NCBI GenBank assembly: GCA_023255955.1 | Contig: JAGDWD010000007.1 | Span: 197,929-261,928 of the forward strand | DNA length: 64,000 nt | Source: Desulfurococcales archaeon | GTDB taxonomy: Archaea > Thermoproteota > Thermoprotei_A > Sulfolobales > NBVN01 | Reading direction: 5' to 3' | Shown: positions 21,057 to 59,522 of the stretch, one piece after another | Layout: each line of letters starts with the position of its first letter | How positions within the stretch are numbered: position 1 is the first letter of the stretch | Notes under the pieces: generated by a model | Databases searched by the model: none | What the model was told of the DNA's origin: nothing | What the model saw: only the letters and a program-made list of their open reading frames with translations | Translations under genes and position numbers: made by a program

Positions 21057-22199
21057 GTGTGCTCAGATTGCCGCATAGGATTCCTAGTAAACCCCATAGC
21101 GGGTATGGGTGGATCAGTCGGCTTGAAAGGGACTGACGGTGATCTACTCGACGAAGCCATAAAAAGAGGAGCGAAACCTGTAGCTCCATCTAGAGCTATG
21201 AGGTTTCTATCCAAGCTTAAAGAGAATAAACCGGACGACATGACCTTAATTTCCGCTGGGGGGATTATGGGGTGCGACTATGTTGCACAAGCCGGTCTGA
21301 GAGGGTATATCTGTCTTGAAGAGCCTAAACACAGAAAAACTACCAGGAACGATACAATCAGCATAGTAAGGGAGCTTCTCAAACTCGGCGTACACGCCAT
21401 AGTCTTCGTTGGAGGGGACGGAACAGCGCGAGACATTCTAGAAGCTTGCGGTCCTTCAATACCGATAATAGGAATACCTTCAGGTGTCAAAGTATACTCA
21501 TCAGTTTTTGCGGTATCACCAGAAGCAGCATCCAAGATCGTCACCGACTTCTGTCGGGGCGAGGCTAGAATAGAAATAGGGGATGTTGTTGACGTAAATG
21601 AAGAGATGTTACGTCAGGACATCTTACTACTTAAGCCTTACGGGAAAGCTCTCACAATCTCATCAGAGAGTCTTAGAGTAAGCACCAAGGAGTTAGGTGG
21701 TTCAGATGATGTTGACGCCATAGCTGAGTACTTTATTACGGAGATATATAAACCGGGAGCCCTGTACATACTAGGGCCCGGATCAACAACTAAGACTATA
21801 GCTACAAAACTCGGGATAAATAAAACCCTCCTAGGTTTTGACGCCATCTACGACGGAAAACTTGTCGGGAAGGACCTCACAGCAGAAGATATTCGAAGAC
21901 TTATCAACACATATAGAGAGGTCTACGTAGTTCTATCAATAATTGGCGGGCAGGGATATCTCATAGGGCGAGGTAACCAACAACTAACTCCTGAAATACT
22001 TAAAGCTATAGGACGTGAGAGAATCGTAGTCGTCAGTACTAAAAGCAAGCTTACTAGGCTTAAGCGCTTGTTAATAGATAGTGGGGACGTTGAAGTAGAC
22101 AAGGAGCTGTCCGGCTACTACAGAGTTATAACAGGTTACGGGGAGGTCTCCATCATCAAGGCCGTACCCGCCTCAGACCTGGAAGCTCTCAATTCATGA
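21057..22199 (+). CDS. ATP-NAD kinase family protein (COG3199)
   Basis: This 380-residue protein matches the archaeal ATP-NAD kinase-like family. The N-terminus is GFLVNPIAGMGGSVGLKGTDG, the diacylglycerol-kinase/NAD-kinase motif is VFVGGDGTARDI (GGDGT, about residue 120), then IPIIGIPSGVKVYSSVFA and LYILGPGSTTKTIA. The family is predicted to phosphorylate NAD or a small molecule; the exact substrate is not established for COG3199. It begins at GTG 21057, 11 bases after the phosphoesterase stop, and ends just before a TnpB relic. Confidence 0.87.
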   Translation: MCSDCRIGFLVNPIAGMGGSVGLKGTDGDLLDEAIKRGAKPVAPSRAMRFLSKLKENKPDDMTLISAGGIMGCDYVAQAGLRGYICLEEPKHRKTTRNDTISIVRELLKLGVHAIVFVGGDGTARDILEACGPSIPIIGIPSGVKVYSSVFAVSPEAASKIVTDFCRGEARIEIGDVVDVNEEMLRQDILLLKPYGKALTISSESLRVSTKELGGSDDVDAIAEYFITEIYKPGALYILGPGSTTKTIATKLGINKTLLGFDAIYDGKLVGKDLTAEDIRRLINTYREVYVVLSIIGGQGYLIGRGNQQLTPEILKAIGRERIVVVSTKSKLTRLKRLLIDSGDVEVDKELSGYYRVITGYGEVSIIKAVPASDLEALNS

Positions 22200-22208
22200 A
22201 CGTAACCG

Positions 22209-22345
22209 TTTGTCCCTAGATGCTTGTTGATGTGGGTTTATGTTTGTTTATTGCGTCTAGGGACTTCCACCTTACTCGCAGGGGTTTTCCCTACCCCTGC
22301 GGGTCGTGGGCGGCCTTCGTCCCGAACGGAACGCAGGACACATCT
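22209..22345 (-). ncRNA. candidate omega-RNA-like structured segment, copy A
   Basis: On the minus strand the 3' end of the tnpB remnant and the following ~85 bases are nearly identical to the copy at 58861-58990. One hairpin pairs 22277-22284 with 22294-22301 (CGCAGGGG/CCCCTGCG). A second pairs 22212-22220 with 22256-22264 (GTCCCTAGA/TCTAGGGAC). In the other copy one closing pair of the first hairpin changes from G-C to A-T on both sides, a compensatory change. TnpB omega-RNAs arise from exactly this part of IS605 elements. Transcription is not shown by sequence. Confidence 0.5.
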
Positions 22346-22390
22346 ACGCTTAACCCCGCAGAGCTCGGAGCACTACTCCCATCACTCAGC
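22291..22390 (-). pseudogene. tnpB C-terminal fragment, copy A
   Basis: The minus-strand frame ending at 22291 reads DGSSAPSSAGLSVDV-SCVPFGTKAAHDPQG and stops. It aligns with DGSNAPSLSGLDLDV-SRMPFGTNTTHDPQG at the end of the 58943-59248 fragment. All upstream TnpB domains (WED, RuvC, zinc finger) are missing. No function as a nuclease is possible. Confidence 0.7.
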
Positions 22391-22559
22391 AGGGTATCCA
22401 AGCTACCTACAGGAATGAAGTTAGTGAGCTCAACGCATAACCCCAGAACACAGCAAACCATAAACACAGAGACCACCAATCAAAAACAGAACAGCCCAAA
22501 CTACTTACTAGTTAAATAATGATGCTAGTGTTAAATGCGGATCTCACTAAGTAATTTCC

Positions 22560-25030: not shown

Positions 25031-25134
25031 CGCCGGGGGCGGGATTCGAACCCGCGTGGGGGAGGCCCCCAGTGGGTCTCACGTTCAATGCTGGAACTCG
25101 AGCCCACCGCCTTAGACCGCTCGGCCACCCCGGC
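25031..25134 (-). tRNA. tRNA-Ser (CGA) with 19-nt intron
   Basis: The minus strand gives acceptor GCCGGGG/CCCCGGC with discriminator G, a D-arm with GCCGAGCGGTC, anticodon stem GTGGG/CCCAC, a long class II variable arm (GGGGG-CCT-CCCCC) and T-arm GCGGG-TTCGAAT-CCCGC. The anticodon loop reads CT-CGA-G then a 19-nt insert then A, so the anticodon is CGA. The intron is at 25078-25096, at the usual 37/38 position; because GAG is repeated at both edges its exact ends can slide. No CCA is encoded. Confidence 0.95.
25078..25096 (-). other. tRNA-Ser archaeal intron (bulge-helix-bulge site)
   Basis: This 19-nt intron after position 37 must be cut by the archaeal splicing endonuclease. Removing it restores the seven-base loop CTCGAGA between GTGGG and CCCAC. 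Confidence 0.88.
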
Positions 25135-40767: not shown

Positions 40768-40862
40768 TGGGCCCGCGGGGATTTGAACCCCGGACCACGG
40801 GGACTTCCGCCGTATGAGGTGGGACCCGAACCCCGCATTCTGCCAAGCTAAACTACGGGCCC
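40768..40862 (-). tRNA. tRNA-Pro (CGG) with 21-nt intron
   Basis: The minus strand has acceptor GGGCCCG/CGGGCCC with discriminator A, a D-arm with GTTTAGCTTGGCAGAATGC, anticodon stem CGGGG/CCCCG and T-arm CGGGG-TTCAAAT-CCCCG. The anticodon loop reads TT-CGG-G, then a 21-nt insert, then T, giving anticodon CGG. The intron occupies 40804-40824. The first ten bases of the tRNA gene coincide with the last two sense codons and stop codon of the upstream meaB-like gene. Confidence 0.94.
40804..40824 (-). other. tRNA-Pro archaeal intron (bulge-helix-bulge site)
   Basis: This 21-nt insertion after anticodon-loop position 37 contains CCACC and GGCGG halves able to pair, as expected for a splicing-endonuclease bulge-helix-bulge substrate. 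Removing it leaves the normal 7-base loop. Confidence 0.87.
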
Positions 40863-58853: not shown

Positions 58854-58860
58854 ATTTCCC

Positions 58861-58990
58861 GTTTGTCCCTAGATGCTTGTTGATGCGGGTTTATGTTTGT
58901 TTATTGTGTCTAGGGACTTCCACCTCGTCCACAGGGTTTTCCCTATCCCTGTGGGTCGTGGGTGGTGTTCGTCCCGAACGGCATGCGGGA
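58861..58990 (-). ncRNA. candidate omega-RNA-like structured segment, copy B
   Basis: This is the counterpart of 22209-22345. The hairpins are 58929-58936 with 58947-58954 (CCACAGGG/CCCTGTGG) and 58865-58873 with 58909-58917 (GTCCCTAGA/TCTAGGGAC). The long loop between the second pair is conserved except for a few bases. Structure is better conserved than coding. Transcription is not shown by sequence. Confidence 0.5.
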
Positions 58991-59248
58991 CACATCTAGG
59001 TCTAGTCCTGAGAGGCTTGGAGCGTTGCTCCCATCACCTCCCAGGGCTCTGAAGAGTAGGTTCCAGCAAGCAACTACATCTCTATGCCATAGCTCACCAC
59101 CAACACTACACCTACCAATACGGGAGCTGTTACTGTAAACGATGTGTGTCTTGTGTACTGGGCATACCTTAGATGTGTTCTTAGGGTCTACGTAGATTAC
59201 GGGTACACCAAACTCCCTAGCTTTCTCCTCAATAGCTAGCTGAATACC
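58943..59248 (-). pseudogene. tnpB C-terminal fragment, copy B
   Basis: The minus-strand frame reads AIEEKAREFGVPVIYVDPKN then TSKVCPVHKTHIVYS, RIGRC, WHRDVVACWNLLFRALGGDG and ends HDPQG. These are the end of the RuvC domain and the target-nucleic-acid (zinc-ribbon-like) region of TnpB, including the last RuvC aspartate in HRDVVA. The zinc ribbon is degenerate (CPVH...C). Frame is lost upstream of 59248. It cannot encode a working nuclease. Confidence 0.82.
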
Positions 59249-59522
59249 TCTAAAACACGCTTAGTAGCTAATACCAAAGCCCCACACAAACCTCCCCAAA
59301 AACACCAACTACAAAACATAAAACAAAACCCTATAAATCCAACAAACACCAACCAAAAAAAATAAAACAGCCCCGAGCTATTTCACATGAAAATTCTCTC
59401 GCTATCTTCGACAACAAGAAGTTGATTAGTTACCCTAGGAGAATTCAAAGCAGGCTTACGTCTTCCTCAGCAACTCCTGATGTAGTCTAGTCCTTTTAAA
59501 GAATACTACATCACATAGCATT

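Follow-up and report, generated by a model that had tools for sequence, protein, structure and literature searches.

The locus raises the question of why a short transposon copy that has lost nearly all of tnpB should still keep the 3' end of that gene together with the segment downstream of it. The window analysed here is a stretch of 64,000 nucleotides from a Desulfurococcales archaeon, in which a sequence-only reading had placed such a copy (copy A) at 22206-22496 and had described its kept part as matching a second copy (copy B) almost base-for-base. Both copies lie where they were expected, with 153 of 181 positions identical between 22206-22385 and 58859-59037 (85%, E 3e-50); near-complete identity holds for the terminal ~60 bp only. 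The location given for copy A was right and its end was one base short. When the ends were taken from an alignment of 30 copies and from the loss of similarity in the flanks, copy A proved to be a complete TnpB-less IS607-derived mini-element of 292 bp on the minus strand (22206-22497), reading in the tnpB sense from GGGCTG at the left end (22497) to AAACGG at the right end (22206). It has an NAD kinase gene on one side and a PIN-domain gene on the other, and lies ~60 bp downstream of the latter on the same strand. Elsewhere in the window two matches to tRNAs, 104 and 95 nt long, were seen on the minus strand (25031-25134 and 40768-40862), and their length suggests introns or long variable arms.

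Copy B is itself a truncated IS607 element (58859-59373, minus strand) that consists of a left end, a broken remnant of the tnpB 3' end and a module at 58859-59061 that scores 208.7 bits with our covariance model. Contrary to what had been supposed, HDPQG is not the C-terminus of the intact TnpB: the intact protein ends in HDPTGIPRSLWARWKSLEETLRNPEVMEMTL, and in most copies HDPTGIP... becomes HDPQG-stop or similar through a one-base length difference. A search for an intact tnpB with the C-terminus HDPQG found none.

The segment kept in copy A is, as proposed, an omega-RNA-like module (22206-22409, minus strand; positions 1-203 of model R1), matched by the covariance model with 227.8 bits at G000:C1:220134-220337. 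The predicted hairpins hold up, since the RNA of copy A folds at -85.7 kcal/mol (z -4.66) and none of 200 shuffled sequences did as well. The module fold has six helices and ends at the right end of the element, after which a different flank (the would-be guide) follows in every copy. On the minus strand of copy A, helix P1 with its inner hairpin P1b (22367-22379) occupies 22353-22395, and 11 of the 12 P1 pairs covary in TnpB-less copies. Hairpin P2 (GUCC...GGAC; 22319-22339, minus) occurs in two compensating stem versions among the copies. Helix P3 (22267-22313, minus), with an outer stem CCGCC/GGUGG and an inner stem CGCAGGGG/CCCCUGCG, bears the compensatory pair that had been noticed between the two copies; this pair is real, being G-C in A and A-U in B, in the GCAGGGG/CCCCUGC stem at columns 120 and 143 of the own-genome alignment (A1). 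The terminal hairpin P4 (GUCCCUAGA.../...UCUAGGGAC; 22212-22264, minus) is, with the right-end tip AAACGG (22206-22211, minus), the most conserved part of the module, and the terminal GG of the tip is as expected for IS607. By analogy with TnpB omega-RNAs, the first 20 nt of the 3' flank (22186-22205, minus) would act as the guide; they overlap the 3' end of the NAD kinase gene. The left end of copy A (GGGCTGTTCTGTTTTTGATT...) spans 22435-22497 on the same strand, and its first 15 bases are almost invariant among copies. No Rfam model, including that of the RAGATH-18 reRNA, matched at gathering score or at E values up to 10.

That copy A has no tnpB is correct, and it is no lone survivor. A search with a 180-bp segment of copy A found ~36 copies in the 1.64-Mb genome, and the covariance-model search that had been suggested returned 37 strong matches (150-245 bits), most of them members of the model's own alignment, which was built from 33 own-genome copies. 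Of these 37 copies of the ~203-nt module, 32 (A among them) are TnpB-less and three, namely copy B, L060 and L064, retain part of tnpB; L060 is interrupted by a contig end, as is a further copy (L063), and the last one adjoins an intact parent (L066). The parent is an IS607-family element that encodes a serine recombinase TnpA with an N-terminal HTH (NCBIfam transpos_IS607, NF033518, 239.7 bits against a cut-off of 110; Pfam Resolvase and HTH_17) and a 435-aa TnpB with a Cas12f1-like TNB domain, which scores 79.8 with the NCBIfam TnpB model, under its cut-off of 100, and has no sequence match among solved structures. Its tnpB runs from 1116 to 2423 and its module from 2227 to 2433, so that the module begins within the 3' part of tnpB and extends to the right end of the element. 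Because the assembly consists of 13 contigs, it may lack further intact copies. To reach copies that keep less than the module, right ends in the own genome were also listed by pattern: 39 are real, 36 of which have the module (one contig-cut), the rest being two relics and a singleton without most of it. This last one (L260, G000:C4:110379-110488) is ~110 bp long, joins a left end of subfamily 2 to the right end, and is the sole such minimal copy seen. Viral contigs searched with the right-end pattern gave no match.

The TnpB-less copies, mostly 229-320 bp long, have the properties of MITEs: they are short, non-coding, present in 32 copies and share their ends with an autonomous element. The right end is that of the intact parent, and the left end resembles that of the parent in subfamily 2 and that of L240 in subfamily 1. 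Alignment of the copies shows no terminal inverted repeats (left end GGGCTGTTCTG, right end ACAAACGG), and IS607 elements also lack them. An IS200/IS605 (PATE-like) origin was considered and rejected, because the intact parent, whose right end matches, encodes a serine recombinase. The genome does hold two complete Y1 tnpA-tnpB pairs of IS605 type (L047, G000:C9:6679-8357; L068, G000:C12:353088-354796), which encode a TnpB of a different lineage; a solo copy of the IS607-derived family lies directly downstream of the first of these.

The copies begin with GGG, end with ACGG and sit in unrelated flanks with no target duplication, as in GG insertion of the IS607 type. The flanks differ in all copies and are essentially random. 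Of 32 copies in the own genome, 25 have T or G before the GG of the left end, and 19 have T after the GG of the right end; this bias may possibly reflect target preference or a TAM, and we read it as a weak preference and claim no TAM. The modules of L041 and L042 differ by 0.5% and lie in unrelated flanks, which is consistent with movement in trans by an IS607 TnpA. L042 interrupts a membrane-protein gene; the homologue in genome G005 is continuous and is 33% identical on one side of the element and 56% on the other. At this empty site, seen at the protein level, the two sides lie one codon apart, with TGG TGG CCC in G005 standing against TGG-element-GG TCCC, which is 2 nt from a perfect exchange. 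Trans-mobilization, one of the explanations first offered, thus fits TnpB-less copies spread over the genome beside one intact IS607 tnpA-tnpB pair.

Mobility by itself would be compatible with passive MITEs, in which the right ~200 bp were kept for a long TnpA end or through chance founding deletions, the fold was inherited from tnpB-bearing parents and the RNA is idle. The outermost left and right ends are indeed the most conserved parts of the element, the copies are young with founders in common, and Staphylothermus marinus has IS607-related MITEs (14 copies of ~260 nt) for which no RNA role is described (PMC2678158). The IS607 TnpA is sufficient for transposition; on IS1535 it touches only bp 10-28 of the right end, and other IS607 ends have more motifs, some >60 bp in (PMC6188088). 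Helices P1-P3 lie ~60-190 bp inside the right end, past the known contact. Judged from these data on other IS607 elements, known TnpA contacts alone do not appear to account for the kept right end, and the present TnpA may need a longer one than that of IS1535.

The places where the deletions stop weigh further against passive carriage. The model matches in 39 of 60 genomes, with at least 35-39 copies in each of G002, G003, G037 and G053. We examined 69 copies from relatives with up to ~1.7 kb of upstream sequence, these being the best-scoring ones and no random sample: tnpB of at least 240 aa is present in 12, a shorter remnant in 43 and no remnant in 14. The short remnants start at residue 359-399 in 42 of the 43 (one starts at 281), and the module starts at about residue 371 of the parental TnpB. 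Deletion endpoints thus lie near the 5' edge of the module in genome after genome, and the model would not have missed copies that keep more of tnpB. That separate derivatives in several genomes halt at the same edge, and that the 110-bp copy without most of the module is a singleton, both speak against passive MITEs.

In the own-genome alignment 94.7% of the cells are paired, and covariation scores 0.197, compared with 0.106 for shuffled and 0.016-0.076 for slid controls. When TnpB-less copies alone are taken from eight genomes, in an alignment (A3) that was fitted to the model and so favours structure, the paired share of cells is 94.0%, two-sided changes occur in 36 of 46 pairs and the score reaches 0.468 (shuffled 0.184, slid at most 0.106). 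Between nearest pairs of existing TnpB-less copies in the own genome, broken pairs result from 28 changes where 41.9 are expected, and 9 pair-keeping double changes are found where 2.6 are expected, the expectation being the same changes dealt to random stem positions. Random stem substitutions in further copies, which the sequence-only reading had named as evidence against it, are not what was seen. In raw sequence, P2-P3 are conserved no better than the spacer. Protein-coding constraint on the tnpB remnant was not seen in codon-position diversity among copies, which is 0.170, 0.131 and 0.168 at positions 1-3 and shows no bias, and reading frames are shifted. The constraint seen is on pairing. 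Sister TnpB-less copies keep pairing and not sequence, which also counts against passive carriage; we regard that reading as unlikely, though it is the main rival.

The same counts bear on the idea that the copies are decaying debris, recent remnants that have not yet lost the fold. Some copies do have broken stems, are truncated or, as in copy A, have a degenerate TATA-like box. However, the copies are 10-20% apart and still show fewer broken pairs than expected and an excess of double changes, and the same anatomy recurs in other genera at ~70% identity, so that we consider this idea improbable. Among the copies with broken P2 stems are mosaics: L043, L054 and L055 join the 5' arm of one stem version to the 3' arm of the other, which points to exchange between copies. 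Two copies, L034 (G000:C3:89836-90015) and L037 (C12:247518-247697), have an inverted loop in the inner P3 hairpin, with GGGGTTTTCCCTACCCC in place of GGGGTAGGGAAAACCCC and the stem intact, as if recombination between the stem arms had flipped the loop.

Upstream of the module many TnpB-less copies have a TATA-like hexamer, which starts 40-75 nt before the P1b anchor, or ~28-63 nt before P1. It is present in 46 of 51 TnpB-less copies from relatives (shuffled mean 8.3, maximum 15) and, with a strict motif, in 16 of 30 own copies (shuffled mean 5.0, maximum 11). The hexamers were picked after the sequences had been viewed, so the firmer control is the contrast with copies that have tnpB sequence, in which the position falls inside tnpB and the box occurs in none of 15. 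The parent L066 and L240 have a similar box within the left end, so the deletions appear to have fused a left-end promoter to the RNA; such a promoter may have been kept because TnpA needs the left end. In copy A the corresponding position, found from the alignment of copies and position statistics (22420-22434, minus), reads GTTGAGCTCACTAAC and is degenerate and weaker than the GTTAAGCTTATTAAC of its sisters. That the host has co-opted copy A as a small RNA regulator, perhaps of the neighbouring NAD kinase, could be argued from its place behind the PIN-domain gene and from the overlap of its would-be guide with the NAD kinase end, but the flanks vary at random across copies, A resembles its sisters and its promoter-like box is weak, and we find this suggestion very hard to credit.

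The copies, then, are TnpB-less IS607 mini-elements, each with a flank of its own and with an omega-RNA-type module that is complete and covaries. We put a probability of roughly 60% on the reading that they are moved in trans and contain stand-alone omega-RNA genes used in trans by TnpB. An internal deletion took tnpA and most of tnpB, and left behind the left end, a putative promoter within or beside it and, at the right end, the whole omega-RNA module. An IS607 TnpA encoded elsewhere in the genome would then move the copies to GG sites. The solo RNA would start at its own promoter or arise by read-through, and would probably be bound by TnpB from an intact IS607 copy. With the 3' flank as guide, TnpB could cut the element-free version of the copy's own site, and the TnpB-less copy would thereby gain part of the retention benefit; guide-directed cutting of the empty site has been proposed or shown for other IS605/IS607 TnpBs (PMC11061315, PMC11870625). 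Use of the RNA in trans would explain why deletions halt at the module edge and why the stems covary in spite of an unconstrained reading frame. Counting against it, a single founding deletion underlies many of the copies in a genome, and paired changes could have come in through exchange with copies that bear tnpB. Both an omega-RNA donor and a small regulatory RNA had been proposed; since the flank is different at each copy, a role as donor for TnpB is the more plausible of the two.

More tentatively, and with somewhat less than even confidence, we suggest that the ~32 solo omega-RNA genes, many with a promoter and each with a guide of its own, have their RNAs loaded by TnpB that is encoded by one intact gene or a very few. 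Such guide-only transposons would share or parasitise one nuclease, somewhat like a scattered CRISPR array directed against element-free sites, and the arrangement would recur in several Desulfurococcales genomes. If solo copies are transcribed and loaded, TnpB serves many guides at once in trans. This would change how the selfish benefit of TnpB is divided, would represent a step from one-nuclease-one-guide transposons toward many-guide CRISPR-like systems, and would provide natural minimal guide scaffolds from archaea.

Nuclease-less copies that are moved in trans, or guides that are used in trans, are familiar from PATEs, other IS200/IS605-derived mini-elements and stand-alone IscB omega-RNAs, which belong to other transposase or nuclease families. 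The S. marinus MITEs resemble the present copies in being short, gene-less and multi-copy, in a Desulfurococcales genome, and similar to a stretch beside IS607-family genes. Compared by description, they differ in that their description predates knowledge of omega-RNA, compares them to sequence upstream of the transposase ORFs and reports no RNA module, covariation or promoter. The RAGATH-18-derived reRNAs of IS607 TnpB are structured guide RNAs on the right side of the element that use the flank as guide, and 36% of the bacterial RAGATH-18 RNAs have no IS607 TnpB next to them (PMC11061315). They are bacterial and independent of coding sequence, whereas the present module overlaps the tnpB 3' end. 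In that overlap, in ending at the right end and in the proposed use of the flank as guide, it resembles the omega-RNAs of IS200/IS605 TnpBs such as that of ISDra2 (PMC8612924, PMC10278001); those elements depend on a Y1 HUH transposase that needs end hairpins, whereas here the enzyme is a serine recombinase and most copies have no tnpB. We found no paper on TnpB-less omega-RNAs in archaea in the open literature, subscription papers being outside the search. The kind of element is already known, and what is new, as far as the open literature shows, is a form that bears a promoter and no tnpB and that, in several archaeal genomes, is more numerous than the form with the gene.
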